From Streptomyces marianii (GTDB lineage Bacteria; Actinomycetota; Actinomycetes; Streptomycetales; Streptomycetaceae), in the NCBI RefSeq assembly GCF_005795905.1, contig NZ_VAWE01000001.1:8125501-8189500 (forward strand): 64,000 nt of DNA. The letters run 5' to 3'. The translations under genes were made by a program, and so were the position numbers. Shown here piece by piece: positions 26,002-49,766 of the stretch. Each line of letters begins with the position of its first letter. Position 1 is the stretch's first letter. The notes under the pieces were generated by a model. It did not search any database. It saw nothing but the letters and a program-made list of their open reading frames with translations, and was not told the DNA's origin.

Positions 26002-26020
26002 GGCCAACCCCACACAAGCA

Positions 26021-27515: not shown

Positions 27516-30320
27516 ATGCACGCCTCTTCGTGGTCGATAATGGAGAGAAGCGAGAAAGTGATTTCTGGCCCGGCTTCCGCGAGGGATCCCATTTCCCGAG
27601 CAGAAGTGCGCGGTCGGGAAAAACAGCTGGCCCAGACCAGCGCTCAGCTGCGCCGAGTGGCGCGCGGCGGGCGCGGTACGGTCCTCCTGGTGGCGGCGGC
27701 ACCCGGCGCGGGGAAGACCCGCCTCCTCGCGGAAGCCGCCAGGCTCGCAGACGCCGACGGCTTCGTGGTCGTGGGCGGTGTCCCGGCCGGTTCCGACGCC
27801 GCGATCGAGGCGGCACGGACCCGGCTTCGCCATGCCGGTGGCGCCCGCACCGCCGTCGTGCTCGACGATCTGCACCTGGCGAGCCCGCCCGCCCTGACAA
27901 CGTTGTGCGACGTCATGGTGGCCCTCAGGGGGCACCCGATCCTCTGGGTACTCGCCTTCGCGACGGACCGGGGTGACGCGCCGCACGAGCCGCTGAAGGA
28001 CTGTCTCGGCAGGCTCCGGGCCGTGCTTCCGGTCGAACGGGTCCGGGAGTTGGGGCCGATCGAGGGCGAGGCGCTGGCGCTCCTGGTCGCCGACTGCACC
28101 GGGGCCGCCCCCGACCCGGCGCTCCTCGCCCTGGCGGAGAGCGTCAACGACACACCCCGTGCCGTGATCGAGCTCCTGCGCGGGCTCGCGGACGACGACC
28201 TGTGCGCGGTCGACGGCACCTCCCGGCCACGGTTCGGCCCGATCGGCGGCCCCCTCGTCGGGGGCGGTGTGCCCGCGCCGGTGCCGAAACGATTCTCCAT
28301 GCTGATCCAGCAGAATCTCCGGTCACTCTCCGAGCCCACCCTGAAGGCGCTCAGGCTGGCCGCGGTGCTCGGATCACCGTTCGCGCCGGAGGATCTGTCG
28401 GCCCTGCTCGGCGAAGCACCCGTCGGCCTGCTCGCGGCGGTGGACGAAGCGGTCGACCGGGGGCTGCTGGTCTGCGGTGAACACGACCTCGCCTTCCGGA
28501 CAGAGCCGATCTGGCGTGTCCTGCTCGACTCCGTACCGCCGCCGGTGTGCGCCCTGTTGCGCCGACAGGCGGCGGCGATGATGCTGCCGCGTTCCGACGG
28601 CGTCGAACGCGCCGCCCTCCAGCTGGTCCACGTCGCCCAACCCGGCAACGCGGACGAGATCCGCGTCATCTCCGAAGGGGCACGGAAGTTGCTCATCGCC
28701 GATCCGTCCACCGCGGCGTCGCTGGCGACCCGTTGCATGGAACTGCTGCCGCCCGGGCGGGCCGAACGCGTACGTCTGGCGCGCACCGCGGTCGAGGCGT
28801 GCACCAGGGCGGGCCACCTGGAGCGGGCGATCACCCTGGCCAAGGCCGCGATCGACGACACGGCGCCACTGGCTCCCCCGTTACCGGCGGAACTCGCGGA
28901 GGACGTGGCCGCGCTGCAGGCGTCGATGTCGACCGCGCTGCTGCTACTGGGGAACGTGCAGTCGGCGCGCCGTGCCGCGGGCGACGCGCTGGCGGCGCGA
29001 CACGGCGGCGGCCAGCACCGCGAAGCCATGATCGCCCACCTCGCCGCTTCCTATCTGACCGGCGACGGTACCGCGGTGGACCGTGCACACAGGATCCTCG
29101 ACGCTCCCGACCGCCACACCCGCGCCGTACTGGTCGGTGCGATGACCTTCCACGCCTTCGGCCAGTGGCGTGACGGCGAGGTGGGAGAGGCGGTGAGCAC
29201 CCTGCGTGAGGCGGTCGCGCTCGACCGCACGGGGGAGGAGGCGCAGATCCTCGATCCGCGCTGGTTCCTCGCCTTCGCCCTCACCAGGACCGACGAGTAC
29301 GAGCAGGCGGCGGCCGTCATCCAGAGTTCCGCCGCGACGTCCGCACCGGAGTCCGGAGCGCTGACCGCCGCCGTCCCGGCCGTGCTCCGCGCCCAACTGC
29401 ATCTCGCCCAGGGCCGGCTGGACGAGGCCGAGGGGGAGGCCAGGACCGGTGTGGGCACCGACGGCTCCCACGTCCCGATGCTCGCACCGCAGGCGTGGCT
29501 GGTCCTGGCCTCCGTCGCGCTGCGCCGGGGGTCGCTCACCCAGGCCGAGGACCACATCAGGACCCTGGAGAAGGACTTCCCCCAGCACGCCTCCAGCCCC
29601 TGGTGGGCCGCGCGTCTCCTGCTGAACGCCCAACTGGCCGAGGCTCAGGCCGACCCCCTGGCGGCGGCGGACGTGCTCGCGGAGATCGGTGCACGGGCCG
29701 GTGCGCTCCGCGAAGCCGTCCTGGAGGACCCGGCCGCCGCGGCCTGGTGCGTGCGCTCCATGCTCGCCGCGGACCGACCGGATCTCGTCGGGATGGTGAT
29801 CGACACGACGGAGCACCTCCTGGTACGCAACCGTCGCCTCCCCTCGGTGCTGGCCACCGCCATGCACGCTCGCGCGCTCGCCGAGGGCGACGCCGACGCC
29901 CTGGCCCGCGCCGGCCGGCTGCACCGCAACCCGTGGGCACAGGCCGCGGCAGCCGAGGACCACGCCGCTCTCCTGCTCGACCGCGGGGACCACGAGAACG
30001 CGATCAGCGAACTGGACCGGGCCATGAGCGCCTACGGCGCGCTCGGCGGCGAGCGGGACGCCGCCCGGGTCCGGGCCCGCCTGCGCCGGCTCGGTGTACG
30101 ACGCCGGCACTGGACGCACGCCAAGCGGCCCGTCTCCGGCTGGGAGAGCCTCACCAAGACCGAGCGCAAGGTGGCGGAACTGGTGGCCGGCGGCCTCACC
30201 AACCAGCAGGCCGCCCGTCATCTGTTCATCTCCCCGCACACGGTGGGGTTCCATCTGCGGCAGATCTACCGCAAGCTCGGGATTCGGTCCCGTACGGCGC
30301 TGATCCGTCTCAGGGCGTAG
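27516..30320 (+). CDS. staR: StaR: ATPase-type LuxR activator of the indolocarbazole cluster
   Basis: 934 residues. Walker A APGAGKTR (about 61-68), Walker B AVVLDDLHLA (about 113-122), a long helical/TPR-like middle, and a C-terminal LuxR helix-turn-helix (LTKTERKVAELVAGGLTNQQ, then FISPHTVGFHLRQIYRKLG). This is the LAL regulator architecture. In the known staurosporine and rebeccamycin clusters the equivalents StaR/RebR activate the biosynthetic genes. One leucine is encoded by TTA at 28881-28883, so translation should depend on the bldA tRNA. I chose ATG 27516 for its AGGGGG site; GTG 27477 and ATG 27504 are in-frame alternatives. It converges on staB. Confidence 0.9.
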   Translation: MHASSWSIMERSEKVISGPASARDPISRAEVRGREKQLAQTSAQLRRVARGGRGTVLLVAAAPGAGKTRLLAEAARLADADGFVVVGGVPAGSDAAIEAARTRLRHAGGARTAVVLDDLHLASPPALTTLCDVMVALRGHPILWVLAFATDRGDAPHEPLKDCLGRLRAVLPVERVRELGPIEGEALALLVADCTGAAPDPALLALAESVNDTPRAVIELLRGLADDDLCAVDGTSRPRFGPIGGPLVGGGVPAPVPKRFSMLIQQNLRSLSEPTLKALRLAAVLGSPFAPEDLSALLGEAPVGLLAAVDEAVDRGLLVCGEHDLAFRTEPIWRVLLDSVPPPVCALLRRQAAAMMLPRSDGVERAALQLVHVAQPGNADEIRVISEGARKLLIADPSTAASLATRCMELLPPGRAERVRLARTAVEACTRAGHLERAITLAKAAIDDTAPLAPPLPAELAEDVAALQASMSTALLLLGNVQSARRAAGDALAARHGGGQHREAMIAHLAASYLTGDGTAVDRAHRILDAPDRHTRAVLVGAMTFHAFGQWRDGEVGEAVSTLREAVALDRTGEEAQILDPRWFLAFALTRTDEYEQAAAVIQSSAATSAPESGALTAAVPAVLRAQLHLAQGRLDEAEGEARTGVGTDGSHVPMLAPQAWLVLASVALRRGSLTQAEDHIRTLEKDFPQHASSPWWAARLLLNAQLAEAQADPLAAADVLAEIGARAGALREAVLEDPAAAAWCVRSMLAADRPDLVGMVIDTTEHLLVRNRRLPSVLATAMHARALAEGDADALARAGRLHRNPWAQAAAAEDHAALLLDRGDHENAISELDRAMSAYGALGGERDAARVRARLRRLGVRRRHWTHAKRPVSGWESLTKTERKVAELVAGGLTNQQAARHLFISPHTVGFHLRQIYRKLGIRSRTALIRLRA

Positions 30321-30428
30321 CGCTCCGCGACGGGTTCGGCGATCGCATTCCGGTGCGCAGGGGCTGTGTGGCCGAGCGGCGGCTCCCTCGTACGGCCCGG
30401 CGGCGCCGTCGTGTGCGCTCGCTCCCTC

Positions 30429-30525: not shown

Positions 30526-31479
30526 TCAGGGCGCCCTGCGCTTCCTCAGCGGCTCCCACCACTCGCGGTTGGTCGTGTACCACTCGACGGTCTCGGCCAG
30601 GCCCTGGTCGAAGGGGATGCGCGGGGCATGCCCGAGGGCCCGCAACTTGGCGTCGGTCAAGGAGTAGCGGAAGTCGTGGGCCTTGCGGTCCGGGACCCGC
30701 TCGACGCGCCGCCGGTCGGCGCCCAGTGCGTCGAGCAGCCGGACCGTGAGCTCCAGATTGGTCAACTCGGCGGTGCCGGCGACGTGGTAGACCTCACCGG
30801 GTTGCCCGCGGTCGGCGACCAGCCGGACGGCTCGGCAGTGGTCGGCCACGTGGATCCAGTCGCGTACGTTGGCGCCGTCGCCGTAGAGCGGGACGGTCAG
30901 GCCGTCGAGGAGGTTGGTGACGAAGAGCGGGATCACCTTCTCCGGGTACTGGTACGGCCCGTAGTTGTTGCCGCAGCGGGTGATACTGACCGGCAGCCCG
31001 TGGGTGCGGGCGTAGGCGAGCGCGATCAGATCGCCGCCGGCCTTGGAGGCGGCGTAAGGGGAGTTGGGGCTGAGCGGGGCGGTCTCGTCCCAGGAACCGC
31101 TGTCGATGCTGCCGTAGACCTCGTCGGTGGAGACGTGGACGATTCTCGGGGTGCCCGCGTCGAGGCAGGCCTGCATGAGGGTCTGCACCCCGAGGACGTT
31201 GCTCCGGACGAACTCCTCGGCGCCGGCTATCGAACGGTCCACGTGCGACTCGGCGGCGAAATTGACGACGGCGTCGTGGCCGGGCACCACCTCGGCCAGG
31301 AGCGCCGCGTCGCAGATGTCGCCGTGCACGAACGTGAAACGCTCCTCCACGGGCTCCAGGCTGGCCGGGTTCCCGGCGTAGGTCAGCTTGTCGACGACGG
31401 TCAGCTCGTCCTCGCCGGCGAAGGACCGTACGAAGTGGGAGCCGATGAAGCCGGCGCCGCCGGTCACGAGGATTCTCAT
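30526..31479 (-). CDS. staB: StaB: dTDP-glucose 4,6-dehydratase
   Basis: 317 residues, extended SDR. GGAGFIGSH (residues 7-15) binds NAD+, the catalytic set is TDEV (Thr-Asp-Glu) and YAASKAGGD (YxxxK), and NNYGPYQYPEKVIP is the RmlB nucleotide-sugar loop. It turns dTDP-glucose into dTDP-4-keto-6-deoxyglucose, the branch point for the staurosporine sugar. The start overlaps the staA stop by 4 bases (ATGA). Last gene of the staG-N-A-B transcript. Confidence 0.95.
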   Translation of the reverse strand: MRILVTGGAGFIGSHFVRSFAGEDELTVVDKLTYAGNPASLEPVEERFTFVHGDICDAALLAEVVPGHDAVVNFAAESHVDRSIAGAEEFVRSNVLGVQTLMQACLDAGTPRIVHVSTDEVYGSIDSGSWDETAPLSPNSPYAASKAGGDLIALAYARTHGLPVSITRCGNNYGPYQYPEKVIPLFVTNLLDGLTVPLYGDGANVRDWIHVADHCRAVRLVADRGQPGEVYHVAGTAELTNLELTVRLLDALGADRRRVERVPDRKAHDFRYSLTDAKLRALGHAPRIPFDQGLAETVEWYTTNREWWEPLRKRRAP

Positions 31480-32540
31480 GACGCCACCTGCACCTTGCTG
31501 TGGTCGCCGAGGACGAGGCGGTGGGCCCGCAGGACGCGGGGCGTCGACGTCACCTCGACCTCGCGTCCGATCAGCGAGCGCTCCACGCGGCGCACCCCGG
31601 CGATCGACGCCCCGCGCAGCACGATGGAGTACTCCACTTCGCTGTCGACGACGGAGCAGCCGCTGTCGATGGAGGTGAACGGACCGATGTAGGAGTTGTG
31701 GATGCGTGAACCCGCCGCGACGACCGCGGGACCGACGATCCGCGATCCCGTGACGGTCGCGCCCTTCTCGATCACCACCCGGCCGATGAGCTCGCTGGAC
31801 TCGACCTCGCCGGAGCAGTCGGTCTCGACGCCGTCCAGGACCAGACGGTTGACCTCCAGCATGTCGGCGACGTTGCCGGTGTCCTTCCAGTAGCCGGTGA
31901 CGAGCGTCGACTCCACACGGCAGCCCGAGTCGATCAGCTCCTGGATCGCGTCCGTGATCTCCAACTCGCCCCGCCACGACGGCTTGAGCCTGCACACCGC
32001 GTCGTGCACGCGGGCGGTGAACATGTAGACGCCGACCAGCGCGAGGTCGCTCTTCGGGTGCTCCGGCTTCTCCTCCAGACCGATCACCCGGCCGCTGCCG
32101 TCGAGTTCGACCACACCGAACGCACGCGGGTCCGACACCCGGGTCAGCAGGATCTGGGCGTCCGGACGGTTCACCCGGAAGCGGTCCACGAGTGCGCCGA
32201 TGCCGCCGACGATGAAGTTGTCGCCCAGGTACATCACGAAGTCGTCGTCGCCGAGGTAGTCCCGGGCGATCCCCACGGCGTGGGCGAGCCCCAGCGGTGC
32301 CTCCTGAGGGAGGTAGGTGACGTCCAGACCGAACCGTGAGCCGTCGCCGACCGCGGACTCGATCTCGGCGGCCGTGTCGCCGACGACGATGCCGACCTCG
32401 CGGACGCCCGCCAGGGCGATCGACTCCAGGCCGTAGAACAGGACCGGCTTGTTGGCGACGGGCACGAGCTGTTTCGCCGACGTGTGGGTGATCGGCCGCA
32501 GCCGGGAACCGGAGCCGCCGGCGAGCACGAGCGCCTTCAT
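31476..32540 (-). CDS. staA: StaA: glucose-1-phosphate thymidylyltransferase
   Basis: 354 residues. The nucleotidyltransferase signature GGSGSRLRPITHTSAKQLVP sits at the start (residues 8-27), with MYLGDNFI (metal/nucleotide site) and a C-terminal left-handed beta-helix of hexapeptide-like repeats (SSELIGRVVIEKGATVTGSR). The helix marks the long RmlA subgroup used in secondary metabolism. It joins dTTP and glucose-1-phosphate. I used ATG 32540 (MKALVLAGG), where homology begins, over an upstream in-frame start. It overlaps staB by 4 bases. Upstream, 32541-32750 separates it from staN without a gene. Confidence 0.94.
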   Translation of the reverse strand: MKALVLAGGSGSRLRPITHTSAKQLVPVANKPVLFYGLESIALAGVREVGIVVGDTAAEIESAVGDGSRFGLDVTYLPQEAPLGLAHAVGIARDYLGDDDFVMYLGDNFIVGGIGALVDRFRVNRPDAQILLTRVSDPRAFGVVELDGSGRVIGLEEKPEHPKSDLALVGVYMFTARVHDAVCRLKPSWRGELEITDAIQELIDSGCRVESTLVTGYWKDTGNVADMLEVNRLVLDGVETDCSGEVESSELIGRVVIEKGATVTGSRIVGPAVVAAGSRIHNSYIGPFTSIDSGCSVVDSEVEYSIVLRGASIAGVRRVERSLIGREVEVTSTPRVLRAHRLVLGDHSKVQVAS

Positions 32541-32750: not shown

Positions 32751-33971
32751 TCAGTTCAGTACGGCGGGCAGGGCGCTCAGCCGGCGGATCATCCACTCCG
32801 ACTCCCACACGACGGCGGCCTCGCTGCTCAGCCGCGCCCTCGGGAAGCGCCGCAGGAACTCGCGCACGGCGATCTGTGCCTCCAGCCGGACCAGCGAGGC
32901 GCCGATGCAGTAGTGCATGCCGAGGCCGAAGCTGACGTGGCCGTGCCCGCCGCGTGCCGCCTCGAAGCTGTCGGCTCCCTCGCCGGGCTTCCGGTTCGCC
33001 GCCGCGATACTGACCTGCACCGGGGCGCCCTTCGGGATCAGGTAGCCGCCGAGTTCGATGTCCTCGGTGGGGAAACGCCATGTCGGGTGCGGGAACGGCG
33101 GGTGGACCCGGAGAGCCTCCTCGATCCAGCCCTTGATGCCCTCCTCGGACTGCGGCCGCTCCTCCGGTGGCCGGCGCAGCGCCTCGTACAGCGAGGCGGA
33201 GATCAGGCTCCCCGTCGTCTCGTATCCGGTGATGATCATGCCCACGGTCCAGACGACGACCTCGCCCTCGGTGACCGCGTCCGGCCCGTCCGCCGCGGCC
33301 AGGAAACCCGTGATCACCCCCTCCCGCAGCGGGGCCGGGTCCTTCACCCAGCCCTCGACCGCCCCGAACAGTGCGCCGACCGCCTCCCGGCGTGCGGGGT
33401 AGTCGGAGGAGTAGAGCATGACGTCGGTGATGCTGCGCAGCCGTCGCTCGGCTTCCAGGGGCAGGCCGAGCATCTCGGAGATGAAGGCCAGCGGGACCCG
33501 GTGGGTGTAGTCCGTGACCACATCGACCTCGGCGGACGCGCCGGCCCGCGACTGCTCCAACTCGGTGAGGAAACCGCCGACCTTGACGCCGACCCGTTCG
33601 CCCCACTTCTCGGTGTTGCGCGGGCTCAGCACCGGCTGGTGCACCCGCCGGATCCGGGCATGGTCCGCGCCGTCGCTCATGATCATGGCGCGGGCGTACT
33701 CCGGGGGCGGCTGCGATCCCACCATCAGACCGGGGCGGCGCATGAAGTCGGGGACCAGGGTGATGTCCTTGGCCATCCTGGGGTGGGCGAGCGCGGTCCG
33801 CACCAGCTCGGGGTCGCAGACGACCCAGGCGTGCTCGCCGAGGTAGGGGATGCGGACGACCGGCGCCACGCGCGCTGCGGCCAGCAGTTCCGGCATGCAG
33901 TCGAAGGGACCCGGGTCCACGGGCATGCTGGTCTCGGGGGCTTCCTTCAGGTCGGTCCTCGTGGTGTTCAC
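32751..33971 (-). CDS. staN: StaN: cytochrome P450 forming the second C-N bond
   Basis: 406 residues. Heme loop FGLGMHYCIGASLVRLE (Cys355), ExxR pair E285-R288 and an I-helix ITGYETT (247-253) without the usual Ala-Gly pair before it. In staurosporine assembly this enzyme bridges the sugar C-5' to the second indole nitrogen after StaG has made the first bond; the role is from knowledge of the pathway. Start GTG 33971 overlaps the staG stop by 4 bases (GTGA), so both are coupled. Electrons come from ferredoxin partners not encoded here. Confidence 0.93.
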   Translation of the reverse strand: MNTTRTDLKEAPETSMPVDPGPFDCMPELLAAARVAPVVRIPYLGEHAWVVCDPELVRTALAHPRMAKDITLVPDFMRRPGLMVGSQPPPEYARAMIMSDGADHARIRRVHQPVLSPRNTEKWGERVGVKVGGFLTELEQSRAGASAEVDVVTDYTHRVPLAFISEMLGLPLEAERRLRSITDVMLYSSDYPARREAVGALFGAVEGWVKDPAPLREGVITGFLAAADGPDAVTEGEVVVWTVGMIITGYETTGSLISASLYEALRRPPEERPQSEEGIKGWIEEALRVHPPFPHPTWRFPTEDIELGGYLIPKGAPVQVSIAAANRKPGEGADSFEAARGGHGHVSFGLGMHYCIGASLVRLEAQIAVREFLRRFPRARLSSEAAVVWESEWMIRRLSALPAVLN

Positions 33972-35278
33972 CGTGTGATACCTCCTCCGGTGGGGATCTG
34001 GCCCTGGGAATCGGCCATGGACTCGATGAGATCGGCGGCCCTTCGCGGGGCGTCGCAGGCCTGGTGTTCCCGGGCCAGTGCGCGTGCCCGCCGCCGGTGG
34101 CCGCCGTCGCTCAGCACGGTGGCCACCGCGTCGCGCAGGTCCGCCCTCGACACGGGCCGTTCGAGGACGACACCGGCGCCGGCCCACTCGACCCGCGCGG
34201 CCACGTCGGGCTTCTCCTCCGAACCCGGTACGACGACCAGGGGCACGCCCTGGGCGAGGGCCGCGTTGACTCCGTTGTAGCCGCCGTTGGTCACCATCAC
34301 GTCCACGTGCGGCAGCAGATGGTGGTAGGGGATGAACCGCTCCAGCCGTACGTTGTCCGGAAGCGGCCGGAGCCGGTCGACGTCCAGGTCGGTCCCGGTG
34401 GTGACCACGAAGAGGACGTCCTGTTCGGCCAGGGCGCGTACGGCCGGGACGAGCAGCCCTTCGACGTCGTTGGCGGTGGTGCCCTGGGTGATCAGCACCA
34501 CCGGCCGGCCGCCGTGCAGGTCATCCCACCAGGCGGGCGGGTCGAAGTCCTCCGGGGGCAGCCCGAGGAGCGGGCCCACGAAATGGGTGCCCCGGAGCAG
34601 ATCGCTGCGGGGGAACTCGAAGGACGGGACGGTGCCGAGCAGATAGAGCGCCGGCGGGCGGGCGATGTTCTCCATGGCGGAGGTGTTCAGCCTCGGCAGG
34701 TTCACGGAGGCGCGGACCCGGTCGGCCTCCCGGCGGAGGTCCCGCATCGCCACCTGGTCCGCGACGAAGCGGAGCAGCGCGTTGCGTATCCGGCCGAGCG
34801 GCGACGCGCTCGGTCCCAGCCCCCGGCCGAGGGGGGCGGTGTCCCTGCTGCCGAGGATGTAGACCGAATTGGCCAGCCACGCCAGCGGGATGCCGCTGCG
34901 CTCGCTCGCGAAACAGGCGCCGTAGCACATGTCGTCGGCGAGGACGCAGTCGGCCGGGAACCGTTCGAGGATCGCCAGGAGGTCGTCCATCTGGCGGGGT
35001 GCGGTCCGGTAGAAGATGTCACGGACACCGGTCTTGAAGTTCGCGAGTCCGGTCAGCCCGGCGTGGTCGGGGTAGGCCTCCTCGCGGCTGCTGCCGCCGA
35101 AGTCGACCTCGGGGTGCATGGGTTCGAAGTGCGCCCCGGCCTGTTCCACCTGCCGCTGGAAGGCCCGGCCGGTGTACCACCGCACCTCGTGGCCTCGCCG
35201 GGCCAGTTCGCATGCGACCTCGAGCATGCTCACGACGTGCCCCTGTGCCGGTGTGGTAGCGATCAACACGCGTGCCAA
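33968..35278 (-). CDS. staG: StaG: indolocarbazole N-glycosyltransferase
   Basis: 436 residues, GT-B fold of family GT1. The N-terminal acceptor domain begins with LIATTPAQGHVVSMLEVACEL. The C-terminal donor domain carries HLLPHVDVMVTNGGYNGVNA, the NDP-sugar site seen in macrolide and indolocarbazole transferases, although the classical His is replaced in the TNGGYN stretch. It attaches the dTDP-aminodeoxysugar to one indole nitrogen of K252c. TTG 35278 has GAGGAGG five bases before it. First gene of the leftward operon and divergent from staO. Confidence 0.94.
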   Translation of the reverse strand: MARVLIATTPAQGHVVSMLEVACELARRGHEVRWYTGRAFQRQVEQAGAHFEPMHPEVDFGGSSREEAYPDHAGLTGLANFKTGVRDIFYRTAPRQMDDLLAILERFPADCVLADDMCYGACFASERSGIPLAWLANSVYILGSRDTAPLGRGLGPSASPLGRIRNALLRFVADQVAMRDLRREADRVRASVNLPRLNTSAMENIARPPALYLLGTVPSFEFPRSDLLRGTHFVGPLLGLPPEDFDPPAWWDDLHGGRPVVLITQGTTANDVEGLLVPAVRALAEQDVLFVVTTGTDLDVDRLRPLPDNVRLERFIPYHHLLPHVDVMVTNGGYNGVNAALAQGVPLVVVPGSEEKPDVAARVEWAGAGVVLERPVSRADLRDAVATVLSDGGHRRRARALAREHQACDAPRRAADLIESMADSQGQIPTGGGITR

Positions 35279-35633: not shown

Positions 35634-37148
35634 GTGACGGCACCCTTGCAGGACAGTGACGGGCCGGACGGCGCCATCGGTGGACCGAAGAAGGTGACCG
35701 TCATCGGCGCCGGCATCGCCGGTCTGGTGACGGCCTATGAACTGGAACGCCTCGGGCACGACGTCCAGATCATCGAAGGAAGCCGCGAGGTGGGCGGCCG
35801 GATTCACACCCACCGCTTCGCCGGTGCCGGTGAGACCGGGCCGTTCGCCGAGCTCGGCGCGATGCGCATCCCCGCCGGGCACCGGCTGACCATGCACTAC
35901 ATCGCCGAACTCGGTCTGCAGAACCAGGTCCGCGAGTTCCGGACGCTGTTCTCCGACGACGCCGCCTATCTGCCCAGTTCCGCCGGATACCTTCGCGTGC
36001 GCGAGGCGCACGGCACCCTGGTCGACAACTTCGCCGCCGGACTGCCGAGCGCGCACTACCGGCCCGACACCCTGCTGTTCGGGGCGTGGCTGGATGCCAG
36101 CATCAGGGCCATCGCACCCCGCCAGTTCTACGACGGGCTGCACAACGACATCGGCGTGGAACTGCTCGATCTCGTCGACCACATCGACCTGACGCCGTAC
36201 CGGTGCGGTACCGCGCACAACAGGATCGACCTGCACGCCTTCTTCGCCGACCACCCCCGAATACGGTCGTCCTGCCCGCTCCGGCTGGAGCGCTTCCTCG
36301 ACGACGTGCTCGACGAGACCAGCTCCAGCATCGTGCGGCTGCGGGACGGCATGGACGCGCTTCCCCGGCGGCTCGCCTCGCGGATCCGCGGAAGGATCTC
36401 GCTGGGCCAGGAGGTCGTGGGCATCGACGTGCGGGACGACGAGGTGGTCCTGCGGATCCGGCAGGGCGTCACGACGGTCACCAGGACCTGTGACTACGTG
36501 GTGTGCACCATTCCGTTCACCGTACTCCGGAAGATGCGGTTGACCGGCTTCGACCAGGACAAACTGGATATCGTCCACCAGACGAAGTACTGGCCGGCGA
36601 CGAAGATAGCCTTCCACTGCCGCGAGGCGTTCTGGCAGAAGGACGGCATCAGCGGGGGCGCCTCCTTCACCGGCGGCCACGTCCGGCAGACGTACTACCC
36701 GCCCGCCGACGGCGACCCCGCGCTGGGCGCGGTGCTGCTCGCCAGCTACACCATCGGCCCGGACGCCGAGGCCCTCGCCCGGCTGAGCGAGGCCGAGCGG
36801 AACGCCCTCGTCACCAAGGAACTGAGCGTGATGCACCCCGAGTTGCGCAGGCCGGGCATGGTCCTGGGGGTGGCGGGCCGGGCCTGGGGAGCACGCCGAT
36901 GGTCCTGGGGAGCGGCCACGGTCCGGTGGGGCCAGGAGGCCGCCCTCCGCGAGGCCGAACGACGCGAGGCCGCCCGGCCGCAGCGGAGCCTCTTCTTCGC
37001 CGGCGAGCACTGCTCGTCGAAGCCCGCGTGGATCGAGGGCGCCATCGAGTCGGCGATCGACGCCGCGCACGAGATCGAATGGTGCGAGCCGCGCGCCAGG
37101 GGCGTGTTCGCCGCCACCCGCCCGAGCCGCTCGGACCGGTCGGCGTGA
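35634..37148 (+). CDS. staO: StaO: FAD-dependent L-tryptophan oxidase
   Basis: 504 residues, amine-oxidase/LAAO fold. GAGIAG at residues 25-30, the GGRIHTHRF segment and ELGAMRIP strand bind FAD; RSLFFAGEHCSSKPAWIEGA near the end is the closing FAD motif. It oxidises L-tryptophan to the indole-3-pyruvate imine, the substrate of StaD. GTG 35634 is preceded by GGAGGAAA. The GTGA overlap with staD means tight coupling of the two, as expected for enzymes passing an unstable imine. Confidence 0.95.
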   Translation: MTAPLQDSDGPDGAIGGPKKVTVIGAGIAGLVTAYELERLGHDVQIIEGSREVGGRIHTHRFAGAGETGPFAELGAMRIPAGHRLTMHYIAELGLQNQVREFRTLFSDDAAYLPSSAGYLRVREAHGTLVDNFAAGLPSAHYRPDTLLFGAWLDASIRAIAPRQFYDGLHNDIGVELLDLVDHIDLTPYRCGTAHNRIDLHAFFADHPRIRSSCPLRLERFLDDVLDETSSSIVRLRDGMDALPRRLASRIRGRISLGQEVVGIDVRDDEVVLRIRQGVTTVTRTCDYVVCTIPFTVLRKMRLTGFDQDKLDIVHQTKYWPATKIAFHCREAFWQKDGISGGASFTGGHVRQTYYPPADGDPALGAVLLASYTIGPDAEALARLSEAERNALVTKELSVMHPELRRPGMVLGVAGRAWGARRWSWGAATVRWGQEAALREAERREAARPQRSLFFAGEHCSSKPAWIEGAIESAIDAAHEIEWCEPRARGVFAATRPSRSDRSA

Positions 37149-40100: not shown

Positions 40101-40411
40101 AGTGCCCCGACGCCGCCCTGCGGCGGTCCGACCTGATGAACGCGGCGATCGACATGATGACGGGCCTGATGCGCCCGCTCGCGGAACTGCTCGTGACCAT
40201 GCCGTCGGGGCGCCGGGGCATGACCGCCGGGCCGTCGTTCGAACTGATCGAGCAGCCGACGGCCGTCTCCCGCCCGGACGTGGCCCGGCGCGGTATAGCC
40301 CGGCGCCTCGACGACCTCGCCACGGAATGCGGCAAACATCCCGTCGTGCCCGCGCGCGTCGGCGAGATGAGCGCGTTCTGGGCCGACCACTTCCGGCCGC
40401 CGGACCGCTAG
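37145..40411 (+). CDS. staD: StaD: chromopyrrolic acid synthase (VioB/RebD family)
   Basis: 1088 residues. Begins [22 protein letters not shown], typical of the VioB/RebD family. The C-terminal third contains the ferritin-like domain: [20 protein letters not shown] (about 674-693) and [21 protein letters not shown] (about 739-759), whose Glu/His pairs hold iron. It joins two imine molecules from StaO into chromopyrrolic acid, the indolocarbazole skeleton precursor. Start GTG 37145 overlaps the staO stop by 4 bases. No frameshift or missing ligand residue is visible. Confidence 0.94.
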
Positions 40412-40491: not shown

Positions 40492-41751
40492 ATGTCCCGC
40501 GCCACGCTGCCGCGGTTCGACCTCATGGGCTGGGACAGGAAGGACATCAGCCACCCGTACCCCGTGTACCGGCGTTACCGGGAGGCCGCGCCGGTCCATC
40601 GCACCGCATCGGGCCCGGACAGGCCGGACACCTTCTACGTCTTCACATACGACGACGTCGTCCGCGTCCTGTCGGACCGGCGGTTCGGACGGAACCCGCG
40701 CGCGGCCTCCGGCGACACCGGCACCCGCACGGCCCCCGTCCCGATCCCCGCCGAACACCGGGCCCTGCGGACCATCGTCGAGAACTGGCTGGTCTTCCTG
40801 GACCCGCCGCGCCACACCGAGCTGCGTTCTCTGCTCAACTCCCGGTTCTCGCCCTCGATCGTCACCGATCTCCGCCCGCGCATCACCCGGCTCGCCCAGC
40901 AACTCGTGGAGCGGCTGGGAGGGCACCGCGAGGCCGACCTCGTCGAGGGCTTCGCCGCACCCTTTCCCATCCTCGTCATCTCCGAACTGCTCGGCCTGCC
41001 CGAAGAGGACCGCGCCTGGCTTCGCGCGGGCGCGGTCGCCCTCCAGGAGGCCAGCACCACCCGATCACGCGGCGCCGGCGGTTACGAACGGGCCGAGGCG
41101 GCCTCCCGGGAGTTCGCGCGCTACTTTCGGCGGGAGGTGGACCGGCGGAGCGGGAGCGACGGTGGCGACCTGCTCACCCTCCTCGTCCGGGCCCGGGACA
41201 CCGGCACACGGCTGAGCGTGGACGGGATCGTCGGCACCTGCGTCCATCTGCTCACCGCCGGACACGAGACCACCACCAACTTCCTGGCCAAGGCCGTGCT
41301 GGCCCTGCGGGCGCACCCCGAGATCCTCGCAGAGCTGCGTGGCGCACCCGAGGTGACGCCGCTCGCGGTCGAGGAGCTCATGCGCTACGACCCGCCGGTG
41401 CAGGCGGTGACGCGTTGGGCGTACGAGGACGCGCGCCTCGGCGGGTACGACGTGCCGCGCGGCAGCCGCGTGGTCGCCCTGCTGGGCTCGGCGAACCGGG
41501 ACCCCGCGCGCTTCCCGGACCCCGACGTCCTGGACGTCCACCGCGCCGCCGACCGGCACCTGGGCTTCGGCCTCGGCATCCACTACTGCCTGGGCGCGAC
41601 GCTGGCCCGCGCCGAGGCCGAGATCGGCCTCAGGACCCTGCTGGACGGAATCCCCGGGCTCGGCCGCGGCGGTCACCGGGTCGAGTACGCCGACGACCTG
41701 GTCTTCCACGGCCCGACTCGGCTGGTCCTCGACCTGTCCGACCTCCCGTGA
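40492..41751 (+). CDS. staP: StaP: cytochrome P450 for aryl-aryl coupling
   Basis: 419 residues. Heme loop [17 protein letters not shown] (Cys366), ExxR at E295-R298, and I-helix [14 protein letters not shown]. The His at 252 appears to match the I-helix His that studies of StaP implicate in substrate oxidation, though numbering is by eye. It oxidatively closes and decarboxylates chromopyrrolic acid; StaC steers the product to K252c. ATG 40492 has AAGGAG before it. 80 bases separate it from staD, so readthrough is likely. Confidence 0.94.
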
Positions 41752-41794: not shown

Positions 41795-42622
41795 ATGACG
41801 CAGCAGTCCGACACCTCCGCCGACTCCGTGGGCGAGGTGTACGACCAGTTCGCCGACGCCGGGGCCACCACCGCCATGGGCGGCAACATCCACGTGGGCT
41901 ACTGGGACGACGATCCCGGCGTCCCGCTCGCCGCAGCCACCGACCGTCTCACCGATCTCGTCGCCGACCGCCTCGCCCTCCGGCCGGACCAGCACCTGCT
42001 GGACGTCGGCTGCGGCATCGGGGTACCGGCCCTGCGCATCGCCGCCGGGCACGGCGTGCACGTCACCGGCGTCACCGTCAGCCAGCAGCAGGTAGCCGAG
42101 GCGGCGGAGCGGGCGGTCGGGGCCGGCCTCGGCGGCCGGGTCTCCTTCCGGCTGGCGGACGCCACGGATCTGCCCTTCCAGGACGGTTCCTTCGACGGGG
42201 CCTTCGCGATCGAGTCGCTGCTGCACGTGACCGACCAGATCGGCGCGTTGAGGGAACTCCGCCGAGTCGTCCAGCCCGGCGGCCGACTCGCCGTCGCCGA
42301 CCTGTGCCTGCGGCGGCCGTTCAGCGGCGACGACAAGGCGGTGCTGGAGGGGATGCTGCGCATGTACGAGATCGCCGGGATCAACACGCCCGACGAGCAC
42401 CGCGCCCGTCTGGCGGCAGCCGGCTGGGAACTGCTGGAGCTGACGGACATCGGCGAGCAGGTCCGCGCCAGTTACGGGCACGCCGCGGCCGCGTTCCGGG
42501 GGCTCGCCGACTCCCTCGACCCCGGCGCGGCGGAGCAGATGACCGCGGCGGCCGACCTGATGGAGGGCGTCGGGGAGAACCCGCACACCGGCTATGTCCT
42601 GATCACCGCGCAGCGGTCCTGA
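41795..42622 (+). CDS. staMA: StaMA: SAM-dependent N-methyltransferase
   Basis: 275 residues, class I methyltransferase. Motif I LLDVGCGIG at 68-76 binds SAM; the N-terminal lid GGNIHVGYWDDD and the DLPFQDGSFDGAFAIESLLH strand (post-I) are usual for natural-product enzymes. By gene position it matches StaMA, the sugar 3'-N-methyltransferase of staurosporine. It resembles StaMB at 47178, and the two look like paralogues. ATG 41795 was chosen over an upstream start because AGGAAGG precedes it. Confidence 0.9.
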   Translation: MTQQSDTSADSVGEVYDQFADAGATTAMGGNIHVGYWDDDPGVPLAAATDRLTDLVADRLALRPDQHLLDVGCGIGVPALRIAAGHGVHVTGVTVSQQQVAEAAERAVGAGLGGRVSFRLADATDLPFQDGSFDGAFAIESLLHVTDQIGALRELRRVVQPGGRLAVADLCLRRPFSGDDKAVLEGMLRMYEIAGINTPDEHRARLAAAGWELLELTDIGEQVRASYGHAAAAFRGLADSLDPGAAEQMTAAADLMEGVGENPHTGYVLITAQRS

Positions 42623-42639: not shown

Positions 42640-44085
42640 ATGTCGTCTGGGATCGTTCCACTGCCCGCCGCCCCGGCCGTACGTCCGCGCGAGGACCGGC
42701 GGTTGGCCGACCGCATCGCCCTGTCTGCCGCGAGCGGGCGAGGTGCGCGGGTACGGACCGAGGACGTGCGCGCCTGGCTGGCCGAGCGTCGCCGGGCCCA
42801 CGTCTTCCACGTGGAACGGATACCGTTCGCGGAGCTGGGCGAGTGGCGGTTCGAGCAGGGCACCGGCAATCTCGTGCACCGCAGCGGGCGGTTCTTCACC
42901 GTCGAGGGCATGCACGTGGTGGAGCTCGACGGGCCTTCCGGCGACGGCCCGTACCGGGAGTGGCAGCAGCCGGTCGTCAGACAGCCCGAAGTGGGCATCC
43001 TCGGTATACTGGCCAAGGAGTTCGACGGGGTGCTGCACTTTTTGATGCAGGCCAAGATGGAGCCGGGCAACGCCAATCTGCTCCAGCTCTCCCCGACCGT
43101 GCAGGCCACCCGCAGCAACTACACGGGGGCCCACCGGGGCACGGACGTCAAGCTCATCGCCCACTTCTTCCGCCCCGATCCCGACCGCGTCGTCGTCGAC
43201 GTCCTCCAGTCCGAACAGGGCTCGTGGTTCTACCGCAAGACCAACCGCAACATGATCGTGGAGACCGTCGACGACGTCCCCGAACTGGACGACTTCCGCT
43301 GGCTCACCCTCGGCCAGATCGCCGAACTGCTGCACGAGGACGACGTGGTCAACATGAACGCCAGGACCGTGCTGTCCTGCCTGCCGTACCGGGACACGTC
43401 CCCCGGCGCGCTGCTGTCTGACGCGCAACTCCTGTCCTGGTTCACGGGCGAGCGCTCCCGCCACGACGTGTGCGCCGAGCGCGTACCGCTGGCCGACGTG
43501 CGCGGCTGGAAGCGCGGCGCCGAGGCGATCGAGCACGAGGACGGCCGCTACTTCAAGGTCGTCGCCGTCTCCGTGCGGGCCGGCAACCGCGAAGTGGTCA
43601 GCTGGGACCAGCCGTTGGTCGAACCCGTGGGACTGGGGACCGCCGCGTTCCTCGTCCGTGAGATCGACGGGGTACCCCATGTGCTGGTGCACGCCCGGGC
43701 CGAGGGCGGCTTCCTGGACACCGTCGAGCTGGCCCCGACCGTTCAGTGCACCCCCGGCAACTACACCCATCTGCCCCCGTCGGACCGCCCGCCGTTCCTC
43801 GACGCCGTCCTCGACGCCCCGCCGTCGCACATCCTCTACCAGGCCGTTCTCTCCGAGGAGGGCGGGCGCTTCCTCAACGCGAGGAGCCGGTACCTCGTCG
43901 TCGAAGCCGATGACGCCCCGCTCGACCCGCCCCCCGCCTACACCTGGGTCACCCCGGGCCAGCTCACGGCCCTCACCCGGCACGGCCACTACGTGAACGT
44001 GGAGGCCCGCACGCTGCTGGCCTGCCTCAACGCCGCCATGGCGCGGCCCCGGGGAGAGCAGCGCCATGGAGGAGGGCATCGCTGA
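42640..44085 (+). CDS. staJ: StaJ: dTDP-4-keto-6-deoxyglucose 2,3-dehydratase
   Basis: 481 residues built from two similar halves, as in the NDP-hexose 2,3-dehydratase family (TylX3/EvaA type). Each half has an HVERIPFAELGEW- or CAERVPLADVRGW-like entry and a parallel core (ANLLQLSPTVQATRSNYTGA; DTVELAPTVQCTPGNYTHL). It removes the C-2 hydroxyl; StaK then reduces the product. GCAAGGAG precedes ATG 42640, 17 bases after staMA. The internal duplication is the clearest evidence for the family. Confidence 0.93.
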   Translation: MSSGIVPLPAAPAVRPREDRRLADRIALSAASGRGARVRTEDVRAWLAERRRAHVFHVERIPFAELGEWRFEQGTGNLVHRSGRFFTVEGMHVVELDGPSGDGPYREWQQPVVRQPEVGILGILAKEFDGVLHFLMQAKMEPGNANLLQLSPTVQATRSNYTGAHRGTDVKLIAHFFRPDPDRVVVDVLQSEQGSWFYRKTNRNMIVETVDDVPELDDFRWLTLGQIAELLHEDDVVNMNARTVLSCLPYRDTSPGALLSDAQLLSWFTGERSRHDVCAERVPLADVRGWKRGAEAIEHEDGRYFKVVAVSVRAGNREVVSWDQPLVEPVGLGTAAFLVREIDGVPHVLVHARAEGGFLDTVELAPTVQCTPGNYTHLPPSDRPPFLDAVLDAPPSHILYQAVLSEEGGRFLNARSRYLVVEADDAPLDPPPAYTWVTPGQLTALTRHGHYVNVEARTLLACLNAAMARPRGEQRHGGGHR

Positions 44086-44086
44086 C

Positions 44087-45091
44087 ATGAAGAAGAGGAA
44101 CGCCATGAAGCGCACACCGCTGGTCACCGTACTCGGTGCCTCCGGCTTCGTCGGATCGTCCGTCACCCGCGCACTGGCCGGCCGCCGGATCCGGCTGCGG
44201 GCCGTTGCGCGCAGGCCGAGCGCACCTGCTCCCGGCCCGGCCGAGACCACCGTCGTCACCGCCGACCTCACCGACCGGGACGCCCTCGCCGAGGCGGTCG
44301 CCGGCTCGGACGCGGTGATCCATCTGCTGCTGGGGGAGGGCGGCTGGCGGGCCGCCGAGAGCGACCCCGGCGCCGAACGCGTCAACGTCGGGGTCATGAG
44401 GGACCTCGTCGACGTACTGCGACCGGCTCCCGGCGAGGAGACGCCCCCGCTGGTCGTGTACGGCGGTGCCGCCTCGCAGGTCGGTGTTCCGCAGCGGGAG
44501 CCGCTGGACGGCACCGAACCCGACCGCCCCGAAACCGCCTACGACCGGCAGAAGCTGGCCGCCGAGCAACTCCTGCTGAAGGCCACGGCCGAGGGCCGGG
44601 TACGTGGCATCAGCCTGCGCCTGCCCACGGTGTTCGGCGAGAGCGCGGCGCCCGGCGCGGGCGACCAGGGTGTCGTGTCCGCCATGGTGCGGCGGGCGCT
44701 CGACGGTCAGACGATCACCATGTGGCACGACGGCACGGTGCGCCGCGACCTGGTCCATGTCGACGACGTCGCGGCGGCGTTCAGGGCCGCCCTGAACCAC
44801 CCGGACTCCCTGGTGGGCAGCCACTGGCTGATCGGCGCCGGCCGGGGCGACGCACTCGGCGACGTCTTTCGGCTCGTCGCCCGTACCGTGGCCGACGTCG
44901 TGGGACGGCCCCCGGTCGACGTGGTGTCCGGCGAACCACCCGCGCACGCCCCCGCGACGGACTTCCGCAGCGTGACCCTTGACTCCTCACCGTTCCGCGC
45001 GGCCACCGGCTGGCACCCCCGGATCCCGCTGCCCGAAGGCGTGCGCCGCGCTGTGACCGCCCTGGCCCGGGAGCGGGACGCCCCCCGGTGA
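44087..45091 (+). CDS. staK: StaK: NAD(P)-dependent deoxyhexose ketoreductase
   Basis: 334 residues, extended SDR with GASGFVG (residues 17-23) and a [10 protein letters not shown] segment as the YxxxK site. It lies just after the 2,3-dehydratase and by pathway logic reduces its unstable 3-keto product to a 2,6-dideoxy sugar; in the known sta locus this is StaK. GGAGGAGGG ends 10 bases before ATG 44087; ATG 44066 and 44105 are alternatives. The staJ stop lies one base before this start. Confidence 0.9.
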
Positions 45092-45158: not shown

Positions 45159-46268
45159 ATGACAACGCGTGTATGGGACTATCTGGCGGAGTACGAGGCC
45201 GAGCGCCCGGACATCCTTGACGCCGTTGAGACGGTCTTCGCCTCGGGTCGGCTGGTGCTCGGCGCGAGCGTGCGCGGCTTCGAGGAGGAGTTCGCCGCCT
45301 ACCACTCGGTGGGCCACTGCGTGGGCGTCGACAACGGGACGAACGCGATCAAGCTGGGACTCCAGGCCCTCGGCGTCGGCCCCGGCGACGAGGTGATCAC
45401 GGTGTCGAACACCGCGGCACCCACCGTCGTGGCCATCGACTCCACCGGCGCGACTCCCGTCTTCGTCGACGTCCGTGAGGACGACCACCTCATGGACACC
45501 GGCCAGGTCGGGGCGGCCATCACGGAACGCACCCGGTGCCTCCTCCCCGTCCATCTGTACGGCCAGTGCGTGGACATGGGCCCGTTGAAGGAACTCGCCG
45601 CCCGGCACGGGCTGGCCGTCCTGGAGGACTGCGCCCAAGCCCACGGCGCCCGGCAGGGCGGGACCATGGCCGGCGCCACCGGTGACGCCGCCGCCTTCTC
45701 CTTCTACCCGACCAAGGTACTCGGCGCGTACGGCGACGGCGGCGCCACGATCACCTCGGACCCCTCCGTGGCGAAACGACTGCGCCGACTGCGCTACTAC
45801 GGTATGGACGAGCGCTACTACACCCTGGAGACCCCCGCCCACAACAGCCGCCTCGACGAACTCCACGCCGAGATCCTCCGCCGCAAGCTGAGGCGCCTCG
45901 ACGGCTACATCGCCGGCCGCCGCGCCGTCGCCCGGCGCTACGCCGAGGGTCTCGCCGACACCGACCTCGTCCTGCCGCGCACCGTGCCCGGCAACGAGCA
46001 CGTGTACTACGTGTACGTGGTCCGCCACCCCCGGCGCGACGACATCATCGAGCGCCTCAAGGCATACGACATCCACCTCAACATCAGCTACCCGTGGCCG
46101 GTGCACACCATGACCGGATTCGCCCACCTCGGATACGCCAAGGGGTCGCTCCCGGTCACCGAAGCGCTGGCCGAGGAGATCTTCTCGCTGCCGATGTACC
46201 CCTCGCTCGCTCCCGACCTCCAGGAGAAGGTCATCCAGGCCGTGCGCGAGGTACTGGGGACGCTGTGA
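45159..46268 (+). CDS. staI: StaI: PLP-dependent sugar 3-aminotransferase
   Basis: 369 residues, DegT/DnrJ/EryC1 fold. K186 in [15 protein letters not shown] forms the PLP aldimine, and D157 in [10 protein letters not shown] pairs with the pyridine nitrogen. It installs the 3' amino group, with glutamate as the usual donor, on the deoxyketosugar. Full length for the family. ATG 45159 follows a GGAAAGG site, 67 bases after staK. Confidence 0.94.
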
Positions 46269-46323: not shown

Positions 46324-46944
46324 GTGAAAGCACGCACACTCACCGTCGAGGGAGCCATCGAGTTCACCCCCCGCGTCTTCCCCGACGACCGGGGCAAGTT
46401 CATCTCGCCCTACCAGGAGGAGGCGTTCACCGAGGCCCACGGCGCTCCGCTCTTCCACGTCGCGCAGACCAACCACAGCGTGTCCCGGCGCGGCGTCGTA
46501 CGCGGCATCCACTACACGGTGACCCCACCCGGCACCGCGAAGTACGTCCACTGTTCCCGCGGCAGTGCGCTGGACATCGTCGTCGACATCAGGGTCGGCT
46601 CACCCACGTTCGGCCGCTGGGACGCGGTACTGATGGACCAGCGCGACCACCGGGCCAGCTTCATTCCGGTGGGAGTGGGCCACGCCTTCCTGGCACTGGA
46701 GGACGACACCGTCATGTCGTACATGCTCTCCGAGTGCTACGTCCCCGAGAACGAACTCTCCCTCTCCGCACTCGACCCGGCCCTCGCACTGCCGATCACC
46801 ACGGACACCGAGCCGATCCTCTCCGAGCGGGACCGCGCGGCGATCACCCTCGCCGAGGCCCAGCGGCAGGGCCTGCTGCCGGACTACGCCCGCTGCCGGC
46901 AGATCGAGAGGGGCTGGCTCGCGCCGGCGGGGCCCGTGCCGTAA
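46324..46944 (+). CDS. staE: StaE: dTDP-4-ketohexose 3,5-epimerase
   Basis: 206 residues, RmlC-type cupin. R60 and H63 in RRGVVRGIHYTVTPPG are the family's active-site Arg and His base, and HCSRGSALDIVVDIRVGSPTFGRW is the core strand pair. It inverts sugar stereocentres to reach the L-series. GTG 46324 is preceded by GGAGAA. 55 bases separate it from staI. The 233 bases after it contain no gene and may carry a separate promoter for staMB-staC. Confidence 0.93.
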   Translation: MKARTLTVEGAIEFTPRVFPDDRGKFISPYQEEAFTEAHGAPLFHVAQTNHSVSRRGVVRGIHYTVTPPGTAKYVHCSRGSALDIVVDIRVGSPTFGRWDAVLMDQRDHRASFIPVGVGHAFLALEDDTVMSYMLSECYVPENELSLSALDPALALPITTDTEPILSERDRAAITLAEAQRQGLLPDYARCRQIERGWLAPAGPVP

Positions 46945-47177
46945 CGCCCGCGCACCCACGCGCGGTTCGTATCCCCCGGCGCACCCGGGAGCGCATGGGT
47001 CGTGCGGCGTCCGGCCCGGCCCACCGTCCGGGGCGGACGCCCGTCCCCACGCGAACGAGTGGGTCCCGACCGGCGCCCCGGCTCAGTGGCCCGCCCGCCG
47101 GGATGCTGTGACCGGCGGGTCCGCGCCCCGCCCGCATGCCTGCTTGCTGTCACCTGCCAACCAGAGAGGCCGTTTCC

Positions 47178-48020
47178 ATGACCGACCCCGTCCAGACCCT
47201 GCCCGAGCCGGAAGCCGTCGGCAAGCTGTACGACCGGCTGACGCTGAGCGCGATGAACGACGGCACCTTCAACCCCAACGTCCACATCGGCTACTGGGAC
47301 ACACCGGACTCCGAGGCCACGATCGAGGAGGCGATGGACCGGCTCACGGACGTCTTCATCGAGCGGATGAGGGTGGACGACTCCTCCCACGTCCTCGACC
47401 TGGGCTGCGGGGTGGGCGGTCCCGGTCTGCGGGTGGTGACGCACACGGGCGCGCGGGTCACCGGCATCAGCATCAGCGAGGAGCAGATCAAGACCGCGGG
47501 TCGGCTGGCGGCCGAGGCCGGACTCGCCGACCGGGCGGTCTTCCAGCACGGCGACGCGATGCGACTTCCCTTCGCAGACGCGTCGTTCGACGCCGTGATG
47601 GCTCTGGAGTCCGTCTGCCACATGCCGGACCGGCAGCAGGTGTTCACCGAGGTGTGCCGGGTGCTCCGGCCCGGCGGCCGGATCGTCCTGACCGACGTGT
47701 TCGAACGTCACCCGCGCAAGGCGGTACGTCATCCGGGCATCGACAAGTTCTGCCACGACCTGATGTCGACCACGGCGGACATCGACGACTACGTCGCCCT
47801 GCTCCACCGCTCCGGCCTGCGGCTGCGCGAGATCCTCGACGTCACCGAGCAGACCACGCTGCGTCTCGCCGACGAACTGGGGAAGCTGGCGGCCGTCGAG
47901 GACCGCCCGGTGGCCATGGACGAGGGCAACTTCGACTTCGGCGACGACGCCTTCAAGCCGTCCGACCTGGCGGGTGCCGACGACTTCGGCTGCCTCCTGG
48001 TCACTGCCGAACGCCCCTGA
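47178..48020 (+). CDS. staMB: StaMB: SAM-dependent 4'-O-methyltransferase
   Basis: 280 residues. Motif I VLDLGCGVGG (72-81) binds SAM, and the MRLPFADASFDAVMALESVCH strand and CRVLRPGGRIVLTDVF segment are usual for small-molecule O-methyltransferases. The lid (NVHIGYWDTPDS) resembles that of StaMA. By position and relatives it completes staurosporine by methylating the sugar oxygen. ATG 47178 lies downstream of GAGAGG. It has its own 233-base upstream gap. Confidence 0.9.
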   Translation: MTDPVQTLPEPEAVGKLYDRLTLSAMNDGTFNPNVHIGYWDTPDSEATIEEAMDRLTDVFIERMRVDDSSHVLDLGCGVGGPGLRVVTHTGARVTGISISEEQIKTAGRLAAEAGLADRAVFQHGDAMRLPFADASFDAVMALESVCHMPDRQQVFTEVCRVLRPGGRIVLTDVFERHPRKAVRHPGIDKFCHDLMSTTADIDDYVALLHRSGLRLREILDVTEQTTLRLADELGKLAAVEDRPVAMDEGNFDFGDDAFKPSDLAGADDFGCLLVTAERP

Positions 48021-48125
48021 CCGGATGCGCGCGGGGAGGACGCACCCGCGCTCCCTCCCCGCGCGGTACGGACGGGCCGTGAGCCGAACGAGCAGGACGG
48101 ATCCACGAGGAGAGGCAGGAACGAG

Positions 48126-49766
48126 ATGACGCATTCCGGCGAGCGGACCGATGTGCTGATCGTGGGCGGCGGCCCGGTCGGGATGGCGCTGGCGCTGGAC
48201 CTGACGTACCGCGGGGTCGACTGCATGGTCGTCGACGCCGGTGACGGACAGGTCCGGCATCCCAAGGTCAGCACGATCGGTCCGCGCTCGATGGAACTGT
48301 TCCGCCGCTGGGGCGTCGCGGACGCCGTCCGGGGGGCGGGCTGGCCCGCCGACCATCCTCTGGACATCGCCTGGGTCACCAGGGTGGGCGGTCACGAGGT
48401 GTACCGGTACCGCCGTGGCACCGCCGCGAGCCGACCGGCCTTCGTGCACACCCCCGAGCCCGACCAGATCTGTCCCGCACACTGGCTGACCCCGGTGCTG
48501 GCGCAGGCAGTGGGCGTCCACCCGGACGGCCCGCTGCGGTTCCGCACCACCGTCGACCACGTGCTGCCGGCCGACGACCACGTCGACGCCGCCCTCACCG
48601 ACCAGGCCACCGGTACGACCGGCACCGTCCGGGCACGCTTCCTGGTCGCCTGCGACGGCGCCTCTTCCCCGATCCGCCGGGCCTGCGGCATCGAGGCACC
48701 GGGCCGTCACCGTACGCAGGTCTTCCGCAACGTCCTCTTCCGAGCCCCCGAACTCAAGGAGCGACTCGGCGACCGCGCCGCCCTCGTGTACTTCCTCATG
48801 CTGTCGTCCACGCTGCGCTTCCCCATGCGCTCGCTGAACGGCAGCGACCTGTACAACCTGGTCGTGGGCGCGGACGGCGACGGCGGGACCGGTGTCGACG
48901 CCATGTCCCTGATCCGCGAGGCCCTGGCCTTCCACACGCCGGTGGAACTGCTCGGCGACAGCGAGTGGCGTCTCACCCACCGGGTCGCCGACCGGTACCG
49001 GGCCGGGCGCGTCCTCCTCGCCGGCGACGCGGCGCACACCCTGTCGCCTTCCGGCGGCTTCGGGCTCAACACCGGTATCGCGGACGCCGCCGACCTGGGG
49101 TGGAAACTCGCCGCCACGCTGAACGGCTGGGCGGGACGGCACCTGCTCGACACGTACGACACGGAGCGCCGGCCGATCGCCCTGGAGAGCCTCGACGAGG
49201 CCAACACCAACCTTCAGCGCACCATGGGCAGGGAGGTACCACCCGAGATCCACCTGGACGGGCCCGAGGGCGAGCGGGCCCGCACCGAGATGGCCGGGCG
49301 GCTGGAGAGCAGCGGCGCGCAGCGGGAGTTCGACGCCCCGCAGATCCACTTCGGACTGCGCTACCGCTCGCCGGCGATCATCGACGACCCCGACGTACCG
49401 GTCCGCCACGGTCAGCCGGACGCCGACTGGCGGCCCGGCAGCGAGCCCGGCCACCGCGCCGCGCACGCCTGGTGGGACGCCGCCACCTCCACGCTCGACC
49501 TGTTCGGCCGGGGCTTCGTCCTGCTTCGCTTCGCGGACCACGACGACCTTCCGGCGTTCGAGGGCGCTTTCGCCGGGCGGGGCGTGCCGCTGACCGTGCA
49601 TCAGGGCGGCGACCCGGAGATCGCCAAACTGTACGAGCGCGCCTTCGTGCTCGTACGCCCCGACGGCCATGTGGCGTGGCGCGGCGACGATCTCCCAGGG
49701 GACCCGGCGACCCTCGTCGACACGGTCCGGGGCGAGGGGGGCGAGGCCGCATCCGGCGAGGGGTGA
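48126..49766 (+). CDS. staC: StaC: FAD-binding protein steering aglycone oxidation (RebC family)
   Basis: 546 residues, aromatic-hydroxylase fold. GGGPVG at 14-19 and RVLLAGDAAHTLSPSGGFGLNTG (FAD motif, about 295-317) are intact. RebC, its rebeccamycin counterpart, pushes the StaP product to the fully oxidised arcyriaflavin; StaC instead yields K252c. The sequence alone cannot confirm which, but the sta neighbourhood favours StaC. The last biosynthetic gene; ATG 48126 with GGAGAGGCAGG. No gene lies in 49767-50069. Confidence 0.92.
   Translation: MTHSGERTDVLIVGGGPVGMALALDLTYRGVDCMVVDAGDGQVRHPKVSTIGPRSMELFRRWGVADAVRGAGWPADHPLDIAWVTRVGGHEVYRYRRGTAASRPAFVHTPEPDQICPAHWLTPVLAQAVGVHPDGPLRFRTTVDHVLPADDHVDAALTDQATGTTGTVRARFLVACDGASSPIRRACGIEAPGRHRTQVFRNVLFRAPELKERLGDRAALVYFLMLSSTLRFPMRSLNGSDLYNLVVGADGDGGTGVDAMSLIREALAFHTPVELLGDSEWRLTHRVADRYRAGRVLLAGDAAHTLSPSGGFGLNTGIADAADLGWKLAATLNGWAGRHLLDTYDTERRPIALESLDEANTNLQRTMGREVPPEIHLDGPEGERARTEMAGRLESSGAQREFDAPQIHFGLRYRSPAIIDDPDVPVRHGQPDADWRPGSEPGHRAAHAWWDAATSTLDLFGRGFVLLRFADHDDLPAFEGAFAGRGVPLTVHQGGDPEIAKLYERAFVLVRPDGHVAWRGDDLPGDPATLVDTVRGEGGEAASGEG

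Follow-up and report, generated by a model that had tools for sequence, protein, structure and literature searches.

The closest described systems are the sta cluster of Streptomyces sp. TP-A0274 and the spc cluster of S. sanyensis FMA; their 15 genes, as tabulated in PMC3640393, match those of the locus described here in both content and order. According to that source, the spc cluster yields staurosporine in its own strain and, once moved, in S. coelicolor M1152, while S. sanyensis itself is reported to form additional minor indolocarbazoles, K252a among them, from this gene set (PMC3640393); the product mix is thus not readable from the genes alone. The rebeccamycin (reb) and K-252a (ink) clusters have the O, D, P, C and G enzyme families in common with these systems (PMC3640393), whereas the route to rebeccamycin-type compounds, as outlined in PMC13200232, includes no StaN. 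The same report gathered, in 2026, 196 clusters with co-located StaD, StaO, StaG and StaN homologues, singled out three of them for extra or different genes, and states that, within this class, earlier reports covered only the staurosporine and K-252a clusters (PMC13200232). A further sta cluster is carried by the S. clavuligerus megaplasmid pSCL4.

The window, that is, the whole stretch of 64,000 nucleotides analysed, contains 15 ORFs that fill positions 27516-49766, all translating without an internal stop; the interval begins exactly at the staR ATG and ends exactly at the staC stop codon. The genes follow the order staR, B, A, N, G, O, D, P, MA, J, K, I, E, MB, C, with staR on the forward strand, staB, staA, staN and staG on the reverse strand, and the ten genes from staO through staC on the forward strand. 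Gene content, order and the assignments to sequence type are direct observations, and a complete staurosporine biosynthetic gene cluster is the reading to which we give a probability of about 0.96; no sequence evidence against it was found. The genes are as follows, with identities to the pSCL4 orthologues unless another basis is given:

staR, 27516..30320, + strand: LuxR-type activator of 934 aa with a GerE domain; 63% to the S. clavuligerus orthologue
staB, 30526..31479, - strand: dTDP-glucose 4,6-dehydratase; 83%, the orthologue being annotated rfbB
staA, 31476..32540, - strand: glucose-1-phosphate thymidylyltransferase; 79%
staN, 32751..33971, - strand: P450, predicted for the second C-N bond; P450 family match; 74%
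staG, 33968..35278, - strand: N-glycosyltransferase, predicted for the first C-N bond; 75%, and clade placement
staO, 35634..37148, + strand: L-tryptophan oxidase; Amino_oxidase; 81%
staD, 37145..40411, + strand: chromopyrrolic acid synthase; VioB-like; 67%
staP, 40492..41751, + strand: P450, predicted for aryl-aryl coupling; match to PDB 2z3t
staMA, 41795..42622, + strand: methyltransferase; Methyltransf_11; 68%
staJ, 42640..44085, + strand: NDP-hexose 2,3-dehydratase; Hexose_dehydrat in two stretches; 68%
staK, 44087..45091, + strand: 4-ketoreductase; Epimerase family; 76%
staI, 45159..46268, + strand: sugar aminotransferase; DegT_DnrJ_EryC1; 86%
staE, 46324..46944, + strand: 3,5-epimerase; dTDP_sugar_isom; 81%
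staMB, 47178..48020, + strand: methyltransferase; Methyltransf_11; 76%
staC, 48126..49766, + strand: flavoprotein, predicted to direct the pathway to K252c; comparison with PDB 4eip and 2r0c

The core genes staO, staD, staP and staC are complete, the aminodeoxysugar genes staA, staB, staJ, staK, staI and staE and the methyltransferase genes staMA and staMB are all present and intact, and enzymes for both C-N bonds, StaG and StaN, are encoded. The interval holds no additional gene, and relative to the published gene table none has been added, lost or moved. Adjacent genes overlap by four bases at staA/staB (ATGA, 31476-31479), staG/staN (GTGA, 33968-33971) and staO/staD (GTGA, 37145-37148); the overlapping GTG start of staN at 33971 is preceded by GAGGAGG, with an alternative ATG start at 33926, and upstream starts are possible for staA, to 32600. 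By tblastn, each of the 15 genes has a pSCL4 orthologue (63-86% identity), with gene order and strand agreeing throughout, and the S. clavuligerus megaplasmids were also the best plasmid matches (81% DNA identity over 75% of the query). The pSCL4 locus differs in being megaplasmid-borne with other flanks and in a 4-base overlap of staE and staMB that the window lacks. The TP-A0274 proteins were compared indirectly, through S. clavuligerus, the other loci and the gene table of PMC3640393, a level at which sequence divergence and different flanking genes separate the sta and spc clusters from the window and finer differences are possible. The initial annotation had proposed, from the letters alone, that all enzyme classes needed for staurosporine were present and intact, in the order of the known sta locus and coupled by these three overlaps; the 15 uninterrupted frames with their pSCL4 orthologues, the agreement with both pSCL4 and the spc/sta gene table (PMC3640393), and the location of each overlap at base level bear this out.

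The flavoprotein and the P450 enzymes allow the cluster type to be examined more closely. StaC gave its best PDB match to 4eip (740 bits), which is presumably RebC-10x, a StaC-like enzyme, against 718.5 bits for RebC itself (2r0c). RebC-10x is reported to have StaC-like activity (PMC10851217). At each of the 10 positions where 4eip and 2r0c differ in the printed alignment, StaC agrees with 4eip, the segments over eight of the ten having additionally been string-checked, which points to a StaC-type and not a RebC-type flavoprotein. StaP matched 2z3t at 757 bits over residues 1-417, the second-best structure reaching 252 bits; 2z3t is entitled simply Cytochrome P450, and we take it to be StaP. 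For StaN the best structure was 8k1x (709 bits, next 156), likewise named just Cytochrome P450, and an alignment showed that StaN shares the I-helix and haem motifs with the StaN proteins of relatives. A simple pattern search had suggested that the I-helix threonine was missing from StaN; this was rejected, as TGYETT occurs in 32 of 35 StaN-like rows, that of the window included, certain genomes being counted twice among the rows. StaD is VioB-like with a score of 768 bits, below the VioB cut-off of 1250, and had no match in the PDB. Further motif searches located a Cys motif for haem binding in both StaP and StaN, GxGxxG in StaO and StaC, the SAM motif in StaMA and StaMB, and the Rossmann motif in StaB and StaK.

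The glycosyltransferase was placed by phylogeny. StaG is 98% identical to its counterpart in Streptomyces sp. HNM0645, 94% to that of S. spongiicola and 75% to that of S. clavuligerus; identity is 59% to the NGT protein of L. aerocolonigenes, presumably RebG, and 58%, over 87% of the query, to InkG of N. longicatena. By these nearest StaG relatives, the host is probably a Streptomyces. A tree built from 29 chosen proteins placed StaG in a 13-row clade with 100/100 support, with the InkG and RebG rows outside. A locus check covering six of the 12 other clade rows found a sta-type locus for all six (TRM49041, S. purpureus, K. antibiotica, S. jumonjinensis, S. clavuligerus and Salinispora mooreana). 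Among 392 genomes of the genus, 22, including that of the host, had StaG matches at E up to 1e-60; identity was at least 73% in eight of these (the host included) and then fell to 54%.

These results bear on two other cluster types. A rebeccamycin- or AT2433-type cluster, with an arcyriaflavin aglycone, a single C-N bond and halogenation, would have the enzyme superfamilies in common with the window, and StaC does also match RebC; this reading is nevertheless vanishingly improbable, being already contradicted, as far as sequence can tell, by the 4eip-like residues of StaC, the presence of a StaN orthologue and the position of StaG outside the clade of RebG rows, while neither of the genome's two tryptophan halogenase matches falls in the window. 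Membership of the rebeccamycin class was judged by a RebC-type flavoprotein, a RebG-type glycosyltransferase and a tryptophan halogenase in the cluster, and none of these was found. A K-252a-type or other congener cluster, with a different or unmethylated sugar, also appears very unlikely: K252a and related minor products do arise in S. sanyensis from the same gene set (PMC3640393), but the aminosugar genes staJ, staK, staI and staE and both methyltransferase genes are intact here, and StaG and InkG belong to separate clades. Membership of the K-252a class was judged by one enzyme, the glycosyltransferase, which in the window is not of InkG type. The initial annotation had held that a best match of StaC or StaG to RebC- or RebG-like enzymes would undo its identification, and had proposed comparing StaP as well; neither such match emerged, StaP led to 2z3t by a wide margin, and the staurosporine-type identity is upheld jointly by gene set, order, overlaps, the residues of StaC, the tree position of StaG and the matches obtained for both P450 enzymes, StaP and StaN.

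Whether a complete cluster is expressed is a separate matter. The staR gene has one TTA codon, at 28881. TTA codons can make a gene dependent on the bldA tRNA, and staR may therefore depend on it. A silent cluster, with complete genes and no product in ordinary growth, would be compatible with the staurosporine reading of the genes and is a realistic, if somewhat unlikely, possibility: along with that codon, it draws on S. clavuligerus and S. jumonjinensis, whose similar clusters PMC6856088 mentions where it discusses clusters with undetected products, whereas none of the 15 genes is broken and the HTH domain of StaR is present. A pattern search had also returned StaR as lacking a P-loop, a result largely rejected since AAPGAGKT is present; Ala takes the place of the pattern's first Gly, which is also the case in many relatives compared.

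The comparison set comprised 45 loci besides that of the window, 44 fetched through StaD relatives in the genome collection together with pSCL4. All 15 genes occur in the window order in eight of them (L001, L005, L008, L009, L014, L019, L020 and L026), although for L014 the best single alignment is partial, covering 75% of D, 53% of P and 31% of C; this shared order is far beyond chance. The remaining 37 are contigs that are cut off, natural variants lacking genes, or other bisindole clusters, and most of them have O, D, P and C without the whole set. The clusters of genomes G230 and G379 and of Streptomyces sp. I6 (L014) show 90-95% DNA identity over the cluster, with 83-97% identity per protein for I6. 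An antiSMASH prediction for I6 gave 100% similarity to the staurosporine cluster, in a report that also cites a genome paper on S. spongiicola HNM0071, as a staurosporine producer (PMC6346202).

Several of the incomplete loci appear to be natural variants. In Streptomyces jumonjinensis NRRL 5741, the sta cluster lacks staI between staK and staE (L035:18139-18315), with no match at E up to 1 across 23 kb around the cluster, a stretch free of Ns; its product may bear a neutral sugar, and an spcI mutant is reported to form K252d and K252c (PMC3640393). The sta-type cluster of Streptomyces sp. TRM49041 (L018) retains A, N, G, MA, MB and C, and staB, J, K, I and E were not convincingly found within 23 kb, so its sugar must come from elsewhere or be a different one. 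In L003, L004, L012, L013, L015 and L016, staA and staB (in L003, staB only) are absent from the usual site beside staN, and housekeeping dTDP-glucose genes perhaps serve instead; four of these loci are from Lentzea, and their StaR-like match is just 34-36%. In the Salinispora loci L006, L007 and L037, MB and C precede the sugar genes, and the stretches compared gave no separate staMA; Salinispora StaG falls in the same clade as that of the window.

The surroundings of the cluster differ among its closest relatives. G230 has flanks in common with the window at 16.0-25.4 kb, 49.9-50.9 kb and 55.6-59.4 kb, the outer limits being the ends of the stretch compared, and the cluster thus lies in the same neighbourhood there. 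Two segments are missing or replaced in G230, where 43 bases correspond to 25433-27001 (about 1.6 kb) and 1.7 kb to 50940-55608 (about 4.7 kb). The latter contains genes for an amino-acid permease, a DDE transposase and a DUF2785 protein. In G379, matches of at least 150 bases are confined to 27.26-49.77 kb, with none in the 9 kb and 7 kb compared outside the cluster, a pattern that fits a cluster occurring as one unit in different neighbourhoods. For Streptomyces sp. I6, the comparison comprised nearly the cluster alone, with almost no flank. A neighbouring DUF4396 gene occurred in only one of 21 genomes, the host's own, in an empty-site search, which yielded no empty site; G230, outside those 21, has a DUF4396 gene adjoining its cluster.

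Twenty neighbouring ORFs, chosen from those of the window, were searched against Pfam. The families found were acyltransferase, OLD-like TOPRIM, polyprenyl synthetase, TPR, DUF4396, amino-acid permease, two DDE transposases, DUF2785, MFS, subtilase, LuxR, flavoprotein oxidoreductase, MIP, M48 peptidase, ROK and a cupin/HTH protein; three of the 20 had no Pfam family. Extra tailoring genes beside the cluster were considered and set aside, as no evident indolocarbazole tailoring enzyme was found among the 20. The oxidoreductase (17252-19171; 639 residues, Pyr_redox_3) is encoded 8 kb to the left of staR, within DNA common to G230, and could conceivably be a tailoring enzyme. No tryptophan halogenase (PF04820) is encoded in the window; the genome has a strong match at C1:7594136-7595590, about 0.53 Mb from the window, and a second at C1:3500741-3500914 (24 bits). 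That enzymes outside the cluster, for example this oxidoreductase or the distant halogenase, modify the product to give a congener besides staurosporine is extremely unlikely, and nothing in evidence points there.

Staurosporine, made by the textbook route, is most likely the product of the cluster. Judging from published orthologues, StaO and StaD would convert two L-tryptophans into chromopyrrolic acid, StaP would close the ring, and StaC would steer the product to K252c. StaA, StaB, StaJ, StaK, StaI and StaE would supply a dTDP-aminodeoxysugar, which StaG would attach to one indole nitrogen; StaN would form the second C-N bond. StaMA and StaMB would methylate the sugar, StaMA probably at nitrogen and StaMB probably at oxygen, and StaR would activate expression.

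Both the cluster type and the gene set are already known, and this ordinary cluster adds nothing new on the staurosporine pathway; the natural gene losses of its relatives, as leads to congeners, are slightly more useful. Production by the strain itself we infer from the genes, which make the host a probable source of this familiar kinase inhibitor, a point of use in dereplication.
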